The notes beneath the pieces were generated by a model. It ran no database searches. It was not told where the DNA came from and was given only the letters and a program-made list of their open reading frames with translations. A DNA stretch of 64,000 bases from Enteractinococcus fodinae (GTDB lineage Bacteria > Actinomycetota > Actinomycetes > Actinomycetales > Micrococcaceae): the NCBI RefSeq assembly GCF_031458395.1, contig NZ_JAVDYJ010000001.1, positions 2,294,001 through 2,358,000 on the forward strand. Reading direction: 5' to 3'. Both the position numbers and the translations under genes were made by a program. Shown here in pieces: positions 46,923 through 56,973 of this stretch (the first letter of the stretch is position 1; the number at the start of each line of letters is the position of its first letter).

Positions 46923-47687
46923 CTACTCCTGGTCTGCAGGCAGGTGGTCATCTGCCCAATAGTGGACGGCGTCGCGAACGAACTGCGGCCCAGCGGGAGA
47001 CACGCGGTTGTAATTGGCTGCGAATCGTTCGTCGTCCACATACATTTGCGTGATCCCCTTGAGCATCGCCTTAGACATAGGTTGGCTCTGCATGGCTGAG
47101 CGCAACCAGGCGACGTGACGTGCGGCGACCTCCTGGGCTGCGGCAGCATCAGGCGCGATACCGGAAGCGATCACCTGATCCCACGCAGCGTTGAGGTCTT
47201 CGACCTCCTGACGGAACGCTGCTTGGCCTTCGTCGCCGAGTTCGGACCACCATTCGTTGGAGCGATCTGCGGCGTCATTGCCCCAGCGCTCCCGGACTTC
47301 GGCGTCGTATTGGGTGTGGTCAAAGCCTTCGAACATATCTTTAGGCATGATGGGCTGTCCTTTCTGTAGGGCCGCGATCGTCGCATCAAGTGACTGCAGC
47401 TGGCGATCTATGCGCTCTTGTTCGGCTTGAAGTCGTGCACGGTGTGTTTGGAGAGCCTCGATATCACGAGTTTCTCCGTTCAGGATCTCGGCGATATCTG
47501 CCAGGGAAAGACCCAACGGGCGCAACAGCAAGATCCGCTGTAATCGCACCAGCGCGCGTTGGTCGTAATACCGCAGACCGCCGGGGCCTCTTCGAGTTGG
47601 GTGAAGTAGGCCGATCTGGTCGTAGTGTCGCAGGGTCCGGGAGGTAATACCCGTGGCTTCAACCACCTGGTGAATCGACCACTCCAT
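46923..47687 (-). CDS. MerR-family regulator with TipAS-type domain
   Basis: 254 aa. An N-terminal MerR helix-turn-helix (SIHQVVEATGITSRTLRHYDQIGLL), a coiled-coil dimer helix (LQAEQERIDRQLQSLDATIAAL), and a C-terminal TipAS drug-recognition-like domain (FDHTQYDAEVRERWG to ANYNRVSPAGPQFVRDAVHYW). TipA proteins sense antibiotics and activate their own gene and efflux genes. An MFS carrier lies upstream on the same strand, about 250 nt away, and is a possible target (inference). Confidence 0.88.
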   Translation of the reverse strand: MEWSIHQVVEATGITSRTLRHYDQIGLLHPTRRGPGGLRYYDQRALVRLQRILLLRPLGLSLADIAEILNGETRDIEALQTHRARLQAEQERIDRQLQSLDATIAALQKGQPIMPKDMFEGFDHTQYDAEVRERWGNDAADRSNEWWSELGDEGQAAFRQEVEDLNAAWDQVIASGIAPDAAAAQEVAARHVAWLRSAMQSQPMSKAMLKGITQMYVDDERFAANYNRVSPAGPQFVRDAVHYWADDHLPADQE

Positions 47688-47934: not shown

Positions 47935-49176
47935 TCAAGCCACCGCGCGCTCAGCGCTGCGACGCCGCAGCAAGTACGCCGGGATCCAAATGACGATGGC
48001 GATCAGTGCCAGGACCACCCCGGCCAGGGCTGGTGCGGAGTAGCTGAAGCCAGCAGCAATGACTGCACCGCCAATAGCAGCACCGGCAGCGTTGGCCATG
48101 TTCAGCGCCGCGTGGTTCAGCGCGGCCGCCAGAGTTTGAGCATCGTGAGCCACGTCCATGAGTCGCACTTGCAAGGTGGGTGCCAAACACGTTCCGAAGA
48201 ACCCACAGAAGCCGAAGGTAATGGTCCCGGCAACCGGGTGAGTCGAGGTGAAGTAGAAAATCGTCAAAATAATCGCGATCATGATGAGAGCTAAGAGCAC
48301 GCCCCACTCGAGATTGCGGTCAGCAAGACGACCACCGAACCAGTTCCCGGCGACTGAACCAACACCGTAGGTCATCAGCACTAACCACAAGAGATCGGGG
48401 TCGAGGCCGGCACCTTCGGTCATGGTCCAGGAGATATAGGTGTAGATCGCAAACATGCCGCCGGAACCAACGGTGCCAATAGCAAGGGTAAACCACACCT
48501 GGCTGCGTCCTAGTGCGCCGATCTCGGTGCGAGGCCTGGTCGGTTTCATACTGACCATATGCGGCATCAAATACCACAGCATAATGATGGTGATCAGTGC
48601 GAACACGGCGACCAGTGCATACGCGGCAGGCCATCCCATGGCGCTGCCCAAGGCCTCAGCGGCGGGCACCCCAATGACCGTGGCAACCGCCAAACCCATG
48701 GTGATAAATGCGACGGCGCGACCTCGTTCAGTCACCGGAGCCATAGAGGCCGCAGACAATGCGGCAACAGAGAAATACGCCCCGTGTGGTAACCCAGCGA
48801 TAAAGCGGGAGATAATCAGTGTCTCGTAGGTGGCAGCGAAAACGGAGATCACGTTGCCGATCAGGAACGCGCCCATCAGCAACAGCAACAAGCGTCTACG
48901 CGGCATCAGCCCCGTAAACACCGTAATCAGTGGCGCACCCACCACGACACCGAGCGCATAGGCACTGATGATCACGCCGGCTTCGTTTTCCGAGATCTGA
49001 AAGTCTTCGGCAATGGTGTTCAGCAAGCCCATGGACACGAACTCGGTCGTGCCAATCGCGAAGGAACCAAGCGACATGGCCAGCATCACGGCAAGCCGAC
49101 GACGGTCACCAATCTCAGTCTGCCGGGGACGTGGTCGACGTTCTGGGATCCAAGACGGAGAATACCGATTTGTCAC
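47935..49176 (-). CDS. MFS transporter, AraJ/drug-efflux type
   Basis: 413 aa, 12 hydrophobic segments. Typical of the DHA1-type efflux family: SFAIGTTEFVSMGLLNTIAEDF in TM1, ISAYALGVVVGAPL in TM2, and GLMPRRRLLLLLMGAFLIGN in the TM2-3 loop region. The start is GTG 49176. Substrate unknown; sugar or drug export is likely. Confidence 0.85.
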   Translation of the reverse strand: MTNRYSPSWIPERRPRPRQTEIGDRRRLAVMLAMSLGSFAIGTTEFVSMGLLNTIAEDFQISENEAGVIISAYALGVVVGAPLITVFTGLMPRRRLLLLLMGAFLIGNVISVFAATYETLIISRFIAGLPHGAYFSVAALSAASMAPVTERGRAVAFITMGLAVATVIGVPAAEALGSAMGWPAAYALVAVFALITIIMLWYLMPHMVSMKPTRPRTEIGALGRSQVWFTLAIGTVGSGGMFAIYTYISWTMTEGAGLDPDLLWLVLMTYGVGSVAGNWFGGRLADRNLEWGVLLALIMIAIILTIFYFTSTHPVAGTITFGFCGFFGTCLAPTLQVRLMDVAHDAQTLAAALNHAALNMANAAGAAIGGAVIAAGFSYSAPALAGVVLALIAIVIWIPAYLLRRRSAERAVA

Positions 49177-49388: not shown

Positions 49389-50906
49389 GTGATCCGGCAA
49401 CTCAGCGGCAAGACCGGCAGTACGCCCACCACCCAGCGACGATACTCTCGGCCAGCACACGATAAACACGCCCCCGACGCCGAAGTGAAACGCGCGACAA
49501 CGGCCTCGGCCATTGGGAACGCAACAGAGTGGTTTGATTATGGGATCTATGCGGTCGCCACCGCCTACATTGCCCACCACTTCTTCGAGCCCTTCGAATA
49601 CCCGATGCTGCTGACTCTAGCGACGTTCGCTATTTCGTTCATCATTCGCCCGCTGGGTGGCTTCGTGTGGGGACCACTGGGTGACCGGATCGGACGCAAA
49701 GGTGTTCTCGCTGCAACCATTTTGATGATGTCAGCGGCCACCTTCCTCATTGGACTTCTACCGACCTATGCCACCATCGGTGTCTGGGCACCAATATTGC
49801 TCATCCTGCTACGAGTAGTCCAAGGCTTCTCCACCGGTGGTGAGTACAGTGGTGCCCACTTTCATGGCAGAGTACGCACAAAATAAACGACGCGGATTCT
49901 TCGGCTCTTTCCTCGAGTTCGGGACGATTAGCGGCTATGCAGTGGGCGCGGCCCTCATGCTCTTTTTGGAAACCATCCTCACGAGCAGATGCTTGCCTGG
50001 GGCTGGCGTCTACCGTTCTTACTGGCACTCCCCTTAGGACTCATCGGGTTCTATCTGCGCAATAAGCTGGAAGACACCCCAATCTTCCAAGACCTCCAGA
50101 AAGAGCAAGCAGCAGAAGAAGCTGCCGCAGCCAAAGAACAGAACAAGCCAGTCAGCAAGGACGAAGCGCCAGAGAAACCCGGACTGGGCGAGCTCATCAA
50201 ACAGTATTGGCGACAACTCCTGGTCATGGCAGGTATGGTCACCGCGCTGAATATCGTCAACTACACGCTGCTGACCTACATGCCGACCTATCTGGAGCAA
50301 CAGCTCGGCCTTAATGCACAGGCCGCTTTGACGGTTATTTTGATCGGTGAGCTCGCGATGGTCGCGTTCATGCCGTTTGCTGGTGCTCTGTCTGACCGCG
50401 TGGGACGCAAGACGTGCTGGAACATTTCGTTGGTCGGTATCGGTGTGCTTGCGATTCCACTGTTCTGGCTGATGGGGATGAGCTTTGGTCTCGCGTTGGT
50501 TGGCTACGCAATTTTGGGGCTGCTCTTCGTTCTGCAGCTTGGTACCATTTCTGCAACCTTTACTGCGATGTTCCCAACCCAGGTCCGGTTTGCAGGCTTT
50601 GCGAGTAGCTACAACGTCGGCACTGCCCTGTTTGGTGGGACAGCAGCACTGGTAAATGATTTCTTCGTTGAAATTACCGGAAGCCTGTTGGTCCCCGCCT
50701 TCTACATGGCAATCGCTTGTGTCATCGGGCTAATTGCGGTGTACTTCATGCCCGAAACCGCCAGCGCTTCACTGGAAGGTGAGCAGGTGCCCGGCTCGAT
50801 CGGTTCGCCGGTTGTTGCTGGTACTCCCGCCTACGTCGCGCTGGAAGAAGGAAAACAACCGGATCAACGCGGTCTGAGCGATGACGAAATGCGACAAGTC
50901 ATGTAG
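49389..50906 (+). pseudogene. MHS-family MFS transporter with two frameshifts
   Basis: GTG 49389 (GGAAGGAG upstream) opens an MHS/ProP-type carrier: [21 protein letters not shown], then [18 protein letters not shown]. At about 49857 the frame breaks (extra C in GCCC or two missing bases); homology continues one frame over with [20 protein letters not shown] to about 49979. There one base is missing, and HEQMLAWGWRLPFLLALPLG continues in the first frame to 50906. Straight reading stops at TAA 49884-49886. Proline/betaine-like substrates are typical. Confidence 0.8.
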
Positions 50907-51088
50907 GACTCGCAAAGTTTCGCAGCCTCCCAATCGACGGAGGCAAAGCAACACTCATAACGTTTAATGGAGGCATGGAGCAATGGTCGTATTAACTCAG
51001 GGTATGAAGTTTGCCATGAACGACCTTCGACAAAGCTACGCGCCTATCAGCTGTGGAAATTTGTCTAAATCTGTCAAAAGATACAGGT

Positions 51089-51721
51089 ATGTCTATTCTC
51101 TCAGCACTCCAGGAAATTCCGAATAATGACCGAATATCCTACCTTCAAGACTATTTTTCACCTGACACGCCGACCTATTCGGGTGCACATTTCAACTCGT
51201 TCCAAGTGAGCGAGAAATCGAGCAACCAAATGACGCTGGCCGATCTCTACTCAGTGAATCTTCTGGCTCTAGACATCCCCGGAAGCGCAGGACTGTCGAT
51301 CCTAGGAACAGATGCCGCATCAATCACCGGCCTCCTCAAGGAGATCCCGGACGAACCAATCGGAAAGCTAACCGACACCGAATTTGCTGCATATTTGGGG
51401 AAAGAATCCGCAGCTTGGCAACTGTGGAAACTGCTCAAGAGTTACCATGGGATGGGGATAGCGAGAGTTAGCAAACTTATGGCACGAAAACGCCCCCACT
51501 TAATCCCCATCCGCGATTCCATCGTAGCTCGTGTGGCAAAATTCAAAAGTGGGGATGACGATTGGCACCTTTGGTGGAAAACCCTTCATGACAACCCTGA
51601 AATTGAGACTCAAGTCGAGTGCCTTCGAAAAGAGGTAGATCAGCCCACTCTTTCCACATTGCGTGTGTTAGACATACTTCTCTGGTATTCCGGCAAGTCT
51701 GGCATTCATAAAAATAGCTAA
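51089..51721 (+). CDS. DUF6308 family protein
   Basis: 210 aa. It matches the DUF6308 pattern: YSGAHFNSF, then LADLYSVNLLALDIPGSAGL, LKEIPDEPIGKL, LWKLLKSYHGMGIARVSKLMARKRPHLIPI near 130-160, and a C-terminal LDILLW. The family is widespread in actinobacteria and its function is unknown. The start is uncertain (GTG 51053 or ATG 51089; no good ribosome site). A/T content and codon use already differ from the flanks, so this marks the left side of the accessory region. Confidence 0.7.
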   Translation: MSILSALQEIPNNDRISYLQDYFSPDTPTYSGAHFNSFQVSEKSSNQMTLADLYSVNLLALDIPGSAGLSILGTDAASITGLLKEIPDEPIGKLTDTEFAAYLGKESAAWQLWKLLKSYHGMGIARVSKLMARKRPHLIPIRDSIVARVAKFKSGDDDWHLWWKTLHDNPEIETQVECLRKEVDQPTLSTLRVLDILLWYSGKSGIHKNS

Positions 51722-52413: not shown

Positions 52414-52863
52414 ATGTTCCCCATCCCCCCACCAGGCTCCGAGGATCGAGAACGAATCATCGAAGAACATAAACGATGCATTGGTTTTATGAAAGGTATC
52501 CCCGGTAACTCGATTGTCCGAACGGAAAGTCCTGGAAGTGTCGTCGGCGTACATGGCGGTATTCATGAGGATAAACAACTTGCAAAAGTTTTAGTTCGTA
52601 TGCGAGCTCAACAACCCGGCGCACACGGAGGTAAACTAGTTGCAATTTGTTTAGAACCTGACAAGGCGTGGCGTATCGGTCAGCTGTCAGGCATTCGCGG
52701 AGTGCCGCCAAAATTCGTGGACGACCGAATCTTCGACAACGAACAAGACATCCAACATGAGATCTTTTTGATGCGTTTGGATCAGTATCCGGAGAGAGAC
52801 GGTATGCCAGAACATTTTCACGAAGGTTGGAAGCGGCGAGACGACAACTGGGCAACCACTTAG
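52414..52863 (+). CDS. N,N-dimethylformamidase small-subunit-like protein
   Basis: 149 aa. The C-terminal half follows the layout of the Paracoccus dimethylformamidase small subunit as I recall it: QLAKVLVRMRAQQP, then an aromatic/acidic KAWRIGQLSGIRGVPP, DDRIFDNEQDIQHEIFLMRL. The known subunit is about 132 aa. The N-terminal 25 residues may not belong, since ATG 52489 is a possible later start. It is followed by the matching large subunit, which strengthens the call. Confidence 0.7.
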   Translation: MFPIPPPGSEDRERIIEEHKRCIGFMKGIPGNSIVRTESPGSVVGVHGGIHEDKQLAKVLVRMRAQQPGAHGGKLVAICLEPDKAWRIGQLSGIRGVPPKFVDDRIFDNEQDIQHEIFLMRLDQYPERDGMPEHFHEGWKRRDDNWATT

Positions 52864-52872
52864 CAACTGATT

Positions 52873-52910
52873 ACGGGGTTTGAAGCATAGCTTTCAGGCC
52901 CCGTCTTTTT
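52873..52910 (+). terminator. Intrinsic terminator between the two subunit genes
   Basis: ACGGGG (52873-52878) pairs with CCCCGT (52899-52904), with additional TGAAG/CTTTCA pairing inside, followed by CTTTTT. It lies 10 nt after the small-subunit stop and 59 nt before the large-subunit ATG. It may set the ratio of the two transcripts or serve as a regulated attenuator. Confidence 0.7.
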
Positions 52911-52968
52911 GTATCTTCGACACCCCTATAACCATTTAGAGCTCTACTTTGAAGAGGCGAGGCATTCA

Positions 52969-55422
52969 ATGACTGAGAACGTTTCCCAGGTCGACTACCC
53001 TATCGCACCAGACTGGATGAGGATTACTGCTTATGCAGATAAGTGGTCAGTAAATCAGGGCGACCAAATCCGTTTCTATGTCAATTGCGACGGACCGTCA
53101 GAATATGAAGCGCAGTTAGTAAAACTCATTAACGGCAACACTGACCCGGCAGGTCCCGGAGCAAAAGAAATACCCACCCCGGCACCTTTCAACGGAAAGC
53201 ATGCTGGAAGGAAACAAATCATCAACTCAGGGTCTTATGTTTTGATAGAAGACCGTGAGCCGCTGAACCTTCAGAGCTTTACCATCCAGGCCTATATCTG
53301 GCCCACCATGCCTCACAAACCTGAGGGCTACTGGCGCCCGGGGCCCCAAGCGATCCTCTCTAAGTGGTTTGAGGGGCGTGGGTACGGGCTGTTCATTAAC
53401 GATGACGCTGAAGTAGAACTACGCATTAATAACACCGTTCTCACTTCGGGCGCTCCTGTCCGTGACCGTGCTTGGATCTTTGTGGCGGCTTCGTACGATG
53501 CCGATACTGGCCAAGCAGTTCTTTATCACGAGCCTCAAATTCGGTACGCATTAGATCCCCAAATATCCCCAGTCGAACAGTCCGGTGTGGCACCCCCTGA
53601 AAGAAGCGAGACCCCGCTTTTCATAGGGGCCTCCCCGAAACAGCGAGATGAGGGCCCCCAAGGTGCCTCCTCAGTACCTCGAGGCTTAGTACTGGGGTCT
53701 CACTTCAACGGTAAGATCGATAGTCCCCGAGTAGCTTCGCAAGCGCTATCCCGTCTTGACATAGAGAGACTCAAAGCTGGTGAAGCAACGGGACTAGACG
53801 AGCGCCGTGGAACGGGGCCTACAACTGAGATCGCCGCGAGCCTAGTGGCATCGTGGGACTTCGGGAAAGAGATCACCACAACTCGTGCTTATGACGATGG
53901 GCCTTACAAGCTACATGGCAAGCTAGTGAATTTACCGACTCGCGCAATGACAGGACATAACTGGACCGGTAGGGAGACAGACTGGAAACGAGCCCCAGAA
54001 GAATACGGTGCCATCCACTTTCATGATGATGACCTGGACGATGCTCGCTGGGAGGTCGATTTTACTTTCGATGTTCCTGACGATATGAAGTCGGCGGTAT
54101 GGGCTGTGAAACTGACGAGTTCTGAGGGAGACGAGGATTATGTACCGTTCATAGTTTGCCCTCCCGTCGGTAAAGAAACCGCAAAAATCGCAGTGATTCT
54201 GTCTACTCAGAGCTACATGGCTTACGCCAATGAGCACCTAGCCGCTAACGCGGGTGCCGCCGAGCTGCTGGTGTATCGCGTTCCCATCATGCAAGAACAA
54301 AACATGTTCCTAGCAGAGCATCGCGAATACGGGAGTTCACTATATGATACTCATACTGACGGATCAGGAGTCAGTCTCTCCTCTCGCCTAAGACCAGTCC
54401 TATCGTTCAGACCGAAATACGATCATTTCCTAGCGCAAGCGCCATGGCAATTTCCAGCTGACTTACATCTGATCGACTGGTTGACGGAGATGGGCTACGA
54501 GTTTGACGTTATTACCGATGAAGAAGTCTCCTACGATGGGTTAGAAAGAATTGAAGGATATAACGTACTTCTGACGGGCACCCATCCTGAGCATCACGAT
54601 GTACATTACCTCAACAATATTCATGCGTATAAGGAACGCGGCGGGCGATTTATGTATATGGGTGCCGATGGGTTCTATTGGATTCATACCTATCATGGCT
54701 CCTACGGCCGGGGAGAGATCACAGAGATGCGCCGCGCAGAGTCCGGGATCCGAACTTGGCGTGCAGATCCCGGGGAATATTATCATCAATCAAACGGGGC
54801 TCTAGGCGGCATGTGGCGTTTCGTCGGCCAGTACTTGCACGCGGTTGGTGGCACCGGTATGTCCTCCGAAGGCTTTGATATCGGAAGCTACTATTCGAGG
54901 ACTCCTGAGTCGAACAATCCGCGCGTAGCATGGGCGTTCGAAGGCATTGACTATGACGAGCGTCTAGGGGATTTCGGCCTAGTATCCGGCGGCGCTGCCG
55001 GGCTTGAACTGGACATCGTAGATACGACTTTAGGATCGCCACCTCATACTCTGCTCACTGCCACATCTGCAGGTAGACATACCGAGGGGTATCTCCTCGT
55101 AATGGAAGATTACGGCTTCAGTCAGGCAGGAATCGATGGAACTCAGCATCCCCGTGTGAGGTCGGATATAGCTTTCCATGAAACTCCAAACGGCGGAGCC
55201 ACATTTGCCTTCAGCTCTATCGCTTTTTGTGGGTCGCTGTCTCACAACAACTATGACAACAACATTTCTCGACTAGTCAAGAATGTTTTGGACCGATTCT
55301 CCCAGGATGGCCCTCTCCCAGAACCAGGCGAAGAGCATTTCATACATCGCGGCAGAAAAGACTATGACCCGCAACTCAACTACACACGGGTCGACAACAC
55401 ACACGGGGAGACATCGGAATGA
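52969..55422 (+). CDS. N,N-dimethylformamidase large-subunit-like protein
   Basis: 817 aa from ATG 52969 (GAAGAGGCGAGG upstream); the frame is open to a TTG at 52909, which lies in the terminator. Layout: N-terminal beta region (WMRITAYADKWSVNQGDQIRFYV), a concanavalin/LamG-like domain with NLQSFTIQAYIWPT, then the catalytic domain. Paracoccus enzyme ligands to iron (2 Tyr, 1 Glu, with a nearby His) have counterparts: Tyr419 in SYMAYANEH, Tyr459 in SLYDTHTD, and His539/Glu541 in GTHPEHHD, with matching spacing. The enzyme hydrolyses DMF to dimethylamine and formate; here the amide substrate is not known. Confidence 0.83.
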   Translation: MTENVSQVDYPIAPDWMRITAYADKWSVNQGDQIRFYVNCDGPSEYEAQLVKLINGNTDPAGPGAKEIPTPAPFNGKHAGRKQIINSGSYVLIEDREPLNLQSFTIQAYIWPTMPHKPEGYWRPGPQAILSKWFEGRGYGLFINDDAEVELRINNTVLTSGAPVRDRAWIFVAASYDADTGQAVLYHEPQIRYALDPQISPVEQSGVAPPERSETPLFIGASPKQRDEGPQGASSVPRGLVLGSHFNGKIDSPRVASQALSRLDIERLKAGEATGLDERRGTGPTTEIAASLVASWDFGKEITTTRAYDDGPYKLHGKLVNLPTRAMTGHNWTGRETDWKRAPEEYGAIHFHDDDLDDARWEVDFTFDVPDDMKSAVWAVKLTSSEGDEDYVPFIVCPPVGKETAKIAVILSTQSYMAYANEHLAANAGAAELLVYRVPIMQEQNMFLAEHREYGSSLYDTHTDGSGVSLSSRLRPVLSFRPKYDHFLAQAPWQFPADLHLIDWLTEMGYEFDVITDEEVSYDGLERIEGYNVLLTGTHPEHHDVHYLNNIHAYKERGGRFMYMGADGFYWIHTYHGSYGRGEITEMRRAESGIRTWRADPGEYYHQSNGALGGMWRFVGQYLHAVGGTGMSSEGFDIGSYYSRTPESNNPRVAWAFEGIDYDERLGDFGLVSGGAAGLELDIVDTTLGSPPHTLLTATSAGRHTEGYLLVMEDYGFSQAGIDGTQHPRVRSDIAFHETPNGGATFAFSSIAFCGSLSHNNYDNNISRLVKNVLDRFSQDGPLPEPGEEHFIHRGRKDYDPQLNYTRVDNTHGETSE

Positions 55423-56270
55423 GTGCGCAAGTAAAACTCGGAGTCCCCCACCTTAGAAATCCAAGACTTCCCGATTTCGGCGACGAAAGTACACATCTCT
55501 GGAGCCGTTGTTGGGTAGCTGTAGGAGTCGACGCCATGCTCAGCAAGCCCGGGCAAGTTCTACCAGCGACCATCGGTAACCACGGAGTGCACGTACTCCG
55601 CCACGACGATGGAGCACTGGATGCAGGATACAATGTCTTCCAACAAGGCTCGTGTTGGAATATCCCGGTGCAATGCGGAAACGGCTATAAGATCGAATGT
55701 CCGTACGTTTCATGCGGACATAGTCGCGATGGGGGTGTATTAGACCCTCGAGATGAATCCGAGCGGCGATTAGTTCGCCAACTTGTTGGAGATCGTCCCT
55801 CTCGGCGGCCTCTACTCCCATTTGAACAGATAGGCCCCATTCTCTTCGTTGCTATGCCCGGTAACCGAGTGGATCAGCTGTACGAGCAGATCTCACCAAT
55901 CTCTAGTTGGGAGCATGATCTCTTACAGGCAAGCGCGCATAACTATTCCGGTTACATTCGACGAGAGATCACTGGAAACTGGCGCGTTATTGGGGATTAC
56001 CTGCAGAGTGCTTCAGAGCTCGAATTAGAAGGGGTTATAGAAGCTAGGGTCGCTCCGCCAAATTTAGTAGCGGTAAACGGGGAAGGCTGGGTGGCGCTCG
56101 CCACTGTTAAACCGATCAGTATGACACGGTCTGAAATCACTATCGCGAAATTTGGCGAAACTCCGGAGGTGCAATGGACCGAAAGCTGGATGAGCATCAT
56201 TGCAAAAGGTGGCTTTGATTCTATAGTTTCCGGTCCCACCGCCCAATGGGCAGAAAAGTTTTTCATATAA
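55419..56270 (+). CDS. Rieske-oxygenase-alpha-like protein without metal ligands
   Basis: 283 aa, ATGA overlap with the large subunit. The N-terminal half reads like a Rieske domain: LWSRCWVAVGVDAMLSKPGQ, VLRHDDGALDAGYNV, then FQQGSCWNIPVQCG and CPYVSCGHSRDG. The normal CxH and CxxH ligands are replaced (F and Q; only the Cys of CPY remains). The C-terminal half resembles the oxygenase catalytic domain (ITGNWRVIGDYLQSASEL, PPNLVAVNGEGWVALATVKP), but the iron-binding D..H....H pattern is absent. So it is probably not an active oxygenase; a structural or regulatory subunit is possible. Family call is inference. Confidence 0.55.
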   Translation: MSAQVKLGVPHLRNPRLPDFGDESTHLWSRCWVAVGVDAMLSKPGQVLPATIGNHGVHVLRHDDGALDAGYNVFQQGSCWNIPVQCGNGYKIECPYVSCGHSRDGGVLDPRDESERRLVRQLVGDRPSRRPLLPFEQIGPILFVAMPGNRVDQLYEQISPISSWEHDLLQASAHNYSGYIRREITGNWRVIGDYLQSASELELEGVIEARVAPPNLVAVNGEGWVALATVKPISMTRSEITIAKFGETPEVQWTESWMSIIAKGGFDSIVSGPTAQWAEKFFI

Positions 56271-56286
56271 TTCCAAGGAGCGGTCC

Positions 56287-56973
56287 ATGCACGAAGACTC
56301 ATGGTTTCGTAGCGAGCCATGCCAAGCCCACCCTATCGTTAGCAATTTAATCTCTGACTACGTCCGTTATCGTGCAATCGAAATTAACCTCGTAGTAGAT
56401 CTATGGGCAAGCAGCAGCTACCTCCTACAACCCTTAGCTGAGAAGCTGAATACGCCCAGTAGCCAGCCGGTTGTGGCCGGTATCTCTCCGGCTGAGCACG
56501 AAGACAAAGTGAGAACAGAGGATATTGGATATCTCTCGCCCCATCCCGCTGGGATAACCGCTGAGTGGTTTCCGAATCCTGACCTTGTAGTAGGCATTCC
56601 ACCTCGGCGCTGGAAACCTAAACGAACCAAACGGCTAAATAACGATAGCCAGTCCGTCGCCCTGACGGATGATCCAGCAAACATCGCGCTCATCGACGCT
56701 TGCCAGATGCTGTCCCCAGAAGGATTAGGTTGCTTTGTCGTGGGACCTGGCTTGCTAATGCGCCCCGGGCCCGGAACGGTCATGGCTAACTTGGCGAAGT
56801 TCGGTCTATTCATAGACGGGATAGTCGTACTTCCTCAAGGCAGCACTCAGCCGAACATCGGAGCAGGTCAAAATCTATTAGTTATATCCCGAACTCAACG
56901 GACACCCCAGGTTCTTGGTCGTTTGTCTCCTGAATGCCCCAACTTAAAGGACATTATTAAAACTTCCGTATAA
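56287..56973 (+). CDS. Degenerate N6-methyltransferase-like protein
   Basis: 228 aa, 16 nt after the Rieske-like gene with AAGGAGCG upstream. It follows the HsdM-type methyltransferase domain order: a SAM-site region reading VVDLWASSSYLLQPLAEKL (no DPxxGSG), VVAGISPAEHEDK, a catalytic-loop region LVVGIPPRRW (no NPPY/F), and a normal-looking back half ACQMLSPEGLGCFVVGPGLL, LFIDGIVVLPQG, GQNLLVISRTQ. Both catalytic motifs are changed, so methylation is unlikely. No restriction or specificity subunit is near. Function unknown. Confidence 0.5.
   Translation: MHEDSWFRSEPCQAHPIVSNLISDYVRYRAIEINLVVDLWASSSYLLQPLAEKLNTPSSQPVVAGISPAEHEDKVRTEDIGYLSPHPAGITAEWFPNPDLVVGIPPRRWKPKRTKRLNNDSQSVALTDDPANIALIDACQMLSPEGLGCFVVGPGLLMRPGPGTVMANLAKFGLFIDGIVVLPQGSTQPNIGAGQNLLVISRTQRTPQVLGRLSPECPNLKDIIKTSV

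Follow-up and report, generated by a model that had tools for sequence, protein, structure and literature searches.

We examined a four-gene operon in a 64,000-nucleotide stretch of the Enteractinococcus fodinae genome (contig NZ_JAVDYJ010000001.1, positions 2,294,001 to 2,358,000, hereafter the window) and found that its third gene is the specific and reciprocal partner of one class of dimethylformamidase (DMFase)-type amidase. The first two genes encode the small and large subunits of such an amidase, while the sequence and predicted structure of gene 3 place it among the descendants of Rieske oxygenase alpha subunits. On balance, sequence comparison favors a distinct DMFase-type subfamily in which a Rieske-derived, metal-binding protein would be either a third subunit or a factor in assembly. 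No description of this partnership was found in searches of the open-license literature on dimethylformamidase or Rieske proteins.

An earlier note on this DNA had proposed four closely spaced reading frames, and all four are present on the plus strand of the window at the coordinates and spacing that it gave. The start of gene 3 overlaps the stop of the large-subunit gene as ATGA, an overlap of 4 nucleotides, and gene 4 follows gene 3 after 16 nucleotides and is preceded by AAGGAG. The features, in window coordinates, are as follows:

52414-52863, plus strand: small subunit of a DMFase-type amidase, 149 amino acids (profile match to the small chain of 6LVB; relatives lie directly 5' of the large subunit)
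52873-52904, plus strand: terminator-like hairpin of 13 pairs with the T-rich tail CTTTTTGTAT, between the small- and large-subunit genes (hairpin scan)
52969-55422, plus strand: large catalytic subunit, with ligands Y419, Y459 and E541, catalytic H539, and D567 (Pfam and 6LVB homology, residue mapping)
55419-56270, plus strand: gene 3, Rieske oxygenase alpha-derived, with a putative remade Cys4/His site and without the mononuclear-iron ligands
55581-55592, plus strand: gene 3 codons H55 to H58 (both His invariant in the family)
55653-55715, plus strand: gene 3 stretch from C79 to C99, with C79, C86, C94 and C99 (each Cys in 53/53)
56287-56973, plus strand: gene 4, predicted HsdM-like fold at low confidence (one relative, at the equal position in a Nocardioidaceae metagenome-assembled genome, L070)
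51053-51721, plus strand: DUF6308 gene, within the same low-GC block (Pfam; GC content at third codon positions, GC3)

The amidase pair and its linkage to gene 3

The large subunit matches the C-terminal domain family PF20254 (E 2.7e-82) and, over residues 18-785, the large chain of the DMFase of Paracoccus sp. DMF (6LVB; E 3.6e-157). It is also homologous to N-acetyl-(R)-beta-phenylalanine acylase (PDB 8HUY; E 1.7e-118), a weaker match than DMFase. As a single sequence, the small subunit gave no relevant match, and no Pfam family was found in the members tested, though they are widely conserved; a profile of 19 rows matches the small chain of 6LVB (E 1.1e-16). Available excerpts of the DMFase structure paper (PMC7686228) describe an Fe(III) bound by Y399, Y440, and E521, a required H519, and a pocket in which N547 stands beside H519; its authors term the two-Tyr/one-Glu iron site unique. 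All four of Y399, Y440, E521, and H519 are matched in the window, by Y419, Y459, E541, and H539, and this Tyr/Tyr/Glu/His set is invariant in 85/85 aligned large subunits. With both subunits homologous to 6LVB and the iron ligands and catalytic His kept, the intact amidase that the earlier note saw in genes 1 and 2 is, by sequence, a DMFase-type pair, and it probably breaks small amides. One pocket position sets it apart from DMFase: N547 is replaced by Asp (D567) in the window and in all 53 large subunits accompanied by gene 3, the window counted, whereas the 30 large subunits without the partner have Asn in 25 cases and Asp in the other five. A genome of the same genus (L002, G001:C74:361-1764) also holds a DMFase-like large-subunit match, at 38% over residues 286-782.

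A tblastn search of plasmids placed the best relative of gene 3 directly 3' of a DMFase-like large subunit, on pAMI5 of Paracoccus aminophilus JCM 7686. This dmfA1-dmfA2 locus belongs to the same clade as the window, with identities of 56% for the small subunit, 65% for the large subunit, and 31% for gene 3; it has a protein of about 100 amino acids and an AmiS gene and lacks a gene 4 relative. The gene next to the dmfA pair is annotated in the record as "biphenyl 2,3-dioxygenase", and in the available excerpts of the pAMI5 paper (Dziewit 2015, PMC4543880) the discussion covers the dmfA pair only.

We then compared 84 loci, comprising 80 from a genome scan with two large subunits (the best 80 of 522) and four from plasmids. 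The gene 3 family lies directly behind the large subunit in 52/52 uncut loci of the 62-66% class, as opposed to 0/30 loci of the 42-50% class, beside which no Rieske-derived protein was found. At least 1 kb of downstream sequence is present in 28 of these 30 controls (L082 and L092 have less), with a median of 6.98 kb against 7.98 kb for the partner-bearing loci. Contig ends truncate the large-subunit genes of another two clade members, L062 and L074, and these two are not counted in the 52. A profile search of the loci added no further gene 3 relatives.

Because the bias of the query had to be removed, gene 3 alone also served as the query against 347 genomes from a single order, and 16 were positive at E <= 1e-30. 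All 16 have large-subunit, Sel1, and ~100-amino-acid relatives within the fetched flanks, and by coordinates gene 3 and the large subunit are neighbors in every one. Searched with the large subunit, the same 347 genomes yielded 16 with matches at 1410-1478 bits, the same 16 as for gene 3, along with at least 59 other DMFase-like matches of 777 bits or less for which no gene 3 partner was found; half of the gene 3-positive genomes (8/16) also hold such a partnerless match. At most two large-subunit matches and five gene 3 matches were scored per genome, and the 16 genomes partly overlap the 52 loci. In both directions, the partnership between gene 3 and this large subunit is specific.

A tree of the 84 large subunits (a quick method, with L074 left out and a root for drawing only) separates the partner-bearing ones from all others by a single branch with a support of 100 and a length of 0.97. 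This clade spans Alpha-, Beta-, and Gammaproteobacteria and Actinomycetota, and an actinobacterial branch with a support of 94 contains the window. Among 394 genomes of the window's class, 15 had a large-subunit match at E <= 1e-100, namely the window's own genome and 14 others at 34-43% identity, and a gene 3 profile was positive in one of 245 genomes of the L070 family, L070's own. The earlier note had made linkage of all four genes in other genomes the test of its proposal; gene 3 bears this out in 52/52 loci, while gene 4 barely does so (1/52). It might be argued that the genes are chance neighbors within a transferred block, as their composition is foreign and neither gene 4 nor the DUF6308 gene is shown to be widely linked. 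We give this a negligible probability; the counts of 52/52 and 16/16 refute it for gene 3, though for gene 4 it is still a possible account.

Ancestry of gene 3 and its cysteine and histidine residues

Gene 3 matches Rieske oxygenase alpha subunits by sequence (best E 3e-6, or 2.8e-14 with the family profile). Its predicted structure (predicted local distance difference test, pLDDT, 83; predicted template modeling score 0.85) has the two-domain fold of these subunits, and all 50 of the best fold matches listed are Rieske oxygenases, with the alpha subunits CntA, NagG, and HcaE at the top. The best of them reaches an E of 1.7e-12 with a template modeling (TM) score of only about 0.5 and a root-mean-square deviation of 11.9, so the domains match better than their arrangement. 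Sequence searches and the structural model thus both indicate that a Rieske oxygenase alpha subunit was the ancestor of gene 3, as had been proposed, and not a member of an unrelated family.

Ordinary Rieske oxygenases (14/14) have their cluster ligands at columns 74 (Cys), 76 (His), 94 (Cys), and 97 (His). In the gene 3 family, column 74 is Cys in 0/53, column 97 is His in 0/53, and column 94 is Cys in 53/53; column 76 is His in 50/53, with Gln in the window and Phe in two others, all three being actinobacterial members. The canonical C-x-H/C-x-x-H motif is consequently found in 0/53 family members versus 14/14 ordinary oxygenases. The mononuclear-iron ligands, a 2-His-1-carboxylate set, are recovered by a loose pattern in 1/53 versus 13/14, and in seven family members inspected, NWK is not followed by a His pair. 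Gene 3 nonetheless mostly shares N72, C94, W32, and the NWK and PN positions with ordinary oxygenases, the last two being retained in its catalytic domain.

Other residues have become fixed. C79 and C99 are each present in 53/53 family members and in 0/14 ordinary oxygenases (Trp in 14 at the latter position), C86 in 53/53 versus 5/14, H55 in 53/53 versus 1/14, and H58 in 53/53 versus 0/14. Together with C94, which completes a C-x6-C-x7-C-x4-C spacing, they belong to a set of just 18 columns without variation in the alignment from which the structure was predicted (the window and 48 of the 52 relatives, leaving out L018, L070, L047, and L049). Judging by the hairpin pairing of predicted strands 55-61 and 67-71, H55 should lie beside old position 74. 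Because these six invariant Cys and His residues lie in or next to the former cluster position, the [2Fe-2S] pocket looks like one rebuilt as a new, putative metal site. We know of no metal site of this kind in a Rieske fold. The earlier description of gene 3 as a degenerate Rieske protein was therefore right about its ancestry and about the disappearance of the canonical motif, but a plain loss of metal motifs does not fit six Cys and His residues invariant in 53/53.

Alternatively, gene 3 might be a metal-free pseudoenzyme subunit whose cysteines are structural or act as a thiol switch. The canonical ligands are indeed lost, and the gene is under relaxed constraint compared with its partner: of 15 close pairs, one was dropped for saturated dS, and in the 14 usable ones the dN/dS of gene 3 is 0.10-0.56, a sign of purifying selection, which is stronger on the large subunit in 14/14. 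We nevertheless consider a metal-free protein unlikely, given that four Cys and two His are invariant in 53/53 despite a mean column identity of 39% in the family alignment.

Another option is that gene 3 keeps an iron-sulfur cluster, with Cys4 or Cys/His ligands, and moves electrons, so that the amidase would be redox-regulated or its reaction oxidative. Besides the Rieske ancestry, C94 is kept in 53/53 and H76 in 50/53, and the known enzyme contains Fe(III), as stated in available excerpts of its paper (PMC7686228), which might need to be kept oxidized. However, the mononuclear-iron pattern is gone save for one loose match in 53, H76 is Gln or Phe in the three actinobacterial members, and no reductase or ferredoxin is present among ten annotated representatives of neighbor clusters, though no systematic search was made for one. 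From these residues, an electron-transfer role appears less likely than one as a subunit or assembly factor, and we rate it as a minor possibility.

Neighboring genes, gene 4, and the foreign block

Several further genes accompany the partner-bearing loci. A Sel1-repeat protein is found in 47/52 and a protein of about 100 amino acids in 50/52 (in L065, the match is on the opposite strand at a distance of ~10 kb), as are an FmdD/AmiC-type binding protein (45/52), urease (16/52), and AmiR (9/52) in the flanks; each of these is seen in 0/30 controls. Branched-chain/urea-type permeases occur in the flanks of 44/52 loci versus 2/30 controls. Where at least 7 kb is available on both sides, the counts are 37/41 versus 0/15 for the binding protein, 35/41 versus 1/15 for the permeases, 15/41 versus 0/15 for urease, and 8/41 versus 0/15 for AmiR. 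Many of the hosts carry the names of methylotrophic genera, and the loci include those of the laboratory methylotrophs Methylorubrum rhodinum and Ancylobacter aquaticus. Such surroundings suggest that a small amide or urea derivative is taken up and hydrolyzed as a source of nitrogen or one-carbon units. The ~100-amino-acid protein, though widely conserved, has no Pfam family in the members tested, and family profiles found no relative of it or of the Sel1-repeat protein in the window.

The AmiR-type regulators in 9/52 loci might suggest that gene 3, with the Sel1-repeat and ~100-amino-acid proteins, senses or regulates amide use without touching the enzyme. We find this improbable, as Pfam detects no DNA-binding or signaling domain in gene 3 or its relatives, and gene 3 tracks one class of large subunit across phyla.

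Gene 4 is far less widespread. No sequence family was found for it in Pfam (two settings), NCBIfam, PHROGs, or PDB sequences, nor any relative among plasmids or match in the Mycobacterium relative of the operon. Among the 84 loci (genome loci being the best 80 of 522) only L070, the Nocardioidaceae genome, has a relative, so that gene 4 accompanies gene 3 in 1/52 loci, at an equal position and with 34% identity over 118 amino acids. We also considered gene 4 as a diverged Sel1 or ~100-amino-acid protein and obtained no match. A model built from a two-row alignment (pLDDT 61) has HsdM-type methyltransferases as its top fold matches (E 3.8e-7). Compared with HsdM, gene 4 is only 228 amino acids long, and the S-adenosylmethionine (SAM) motif I and the NPPY/F motif IV appear degenerate by eye in the two sequences. 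The proposal that gene 4 is HsdM-like is therefore plausible by a low-confidence predicted fold and finds no counterpart in a sequence family, and there is little to place gene 4 on a par with gene 3 as a partner of the amidase.

The operon differs in composition from its surroundings. The GC3 of the four genes is 0.45-0.52, against 0.681 for background genes elsewhere in the window, among which the minimum is 0.576. Their codon distances are 0.39-0.52, while 46 background genes have a median of 0.294, a 90th percentile of 0.377, and a maximum of 0.527. The foreign composition is thus a clean separation by GC3 and mostly, but not entirely, a separation by codon distance. This agrees with the transferred block proposed previously, to which the DUF6308 gene 5' of the operon (GC3 0.50) must be added; it was possibly transferred together with the operon.

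It had also been suggested that the four products are made together, and the ATGA overlap and the 16-nucleotide gap are in keeping with this for the later genes. Between genes 1 and 2, however, lies the hairpin at 52873-52904, and a single transcript of all four genes is therefore not assured. The fold of this gap has a z of about -2.5, and the hairpin scan found six terminator-like sites versus 6.4 expected from shuffles, which is no excess. The hairpin could set the ratio of the subunits or split the transcript. We rejected it as a general feature of the gap between small- and large-subunit genes, as it is not general in the relatives examined.

Two further observations concern the region upstream. 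At 49389-50906 of the window, two successive frames match the N- and C-terminal parts of one major facilitator superfamily (MFS)/sugar transporter, a gene that appears broken. A MerR regulator with a TipAS antibiotic-recognition domain is present at 46923-47687 and adjoins a frame at 47935-49176 that is MFS-like by eye.

A possible third component of the amidase

In the scheme that we favor, the small/large pair would hold a ferric iron through two Tyr and one Glu and cut a small amide or urea-like compound, with dimethylformamide (DMF) as a possible substrate. Gene 3 would stem from what was apparently a single recruitment of a Rieske oxygenase alpha subunit, after which the ligands for electron transfer and oxygenation were lost and the old pocket was rebuilt around C79, C86, C94, C99, H55, and H58. 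The metal bound there would most likely be zinc or a rubredoxin-like iron. The product of gene 3, made in step with the large subunit by means of the ATGA overlap, may be an additional subunit or an assembly factor needed by this amidase subfamily alone. In Proteobacteria, the Sel1-repeat and ~100-amino-acid proteins would as a rule be the remaining members of the set; in the window, an actinobacterial version, both are absent, and a degenerate HsdM-like protein may take their place.

A subunit or assembly factor is favored because the genes overlap in the window, gene 3 keeps to one class of large subunit, it has no known catalytic site, and it evolves faster than the enzyme; it is most likely non-catalytic. 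The stronger statement, that a Rieske oxygenase turned once into a non-oxidative Cys4/His metalloprotein which a tyrosinate-iron amidase requires as its third component, either as a subunit or for assembly of the metal center, we would put at even chances.

Several points weigh against this interpretation. The position of C86 is also Cys in 5/14 ordinary oxygenases, and the model has lower confidence around it (pLDDT 77 for residues 71-80 and 69 for residues 81-90). That the four Cys are close enough to share a metal is our assumption, and C86 in particular could be too distant from the rest. Expression in E. coli yields active classical DMFase, according to the available excerpts of its paper (PMC7686228), which means that no dedicated factor is required for the iron site of that enzyme. 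A search of the window's genome found neither the transporter binding-protein family nor urease. The evidence on the substrate conflicts as well. Excerpts of the pAMI5 paper report that the dmfA pair is not linked to DMF use (PMC4543880). Paracoccus sulfuroxidans CGMCC 1.5364 (L041) has a single DMFase-like large subunit, which is of the partner-bearing class, and growth on DMF is reported for another P. sulfuroxidans strain with dmfA1/dmfA2 genes on the chromosome, the class of which is not visible in the available excerpts (PMC11381386). Given these two strains, we dropped the idea that the partner-bearing class does not act on DMF.

DMFase acts on a very stable amide, and a sister subfamily with a rebuilt Rieske partner would mean that there is more to this type of enzyme than the two subunits known so far. 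Such a partner would also be a natural case of one metal fold re-plumbed for another job. In practical terms, the label of "biphenyl 2,3-dioxygenase" carried by the pAMI5 partner would mislead the reconstruction of pathways, while the transporter and urease context of these loci suggests substrates to test.

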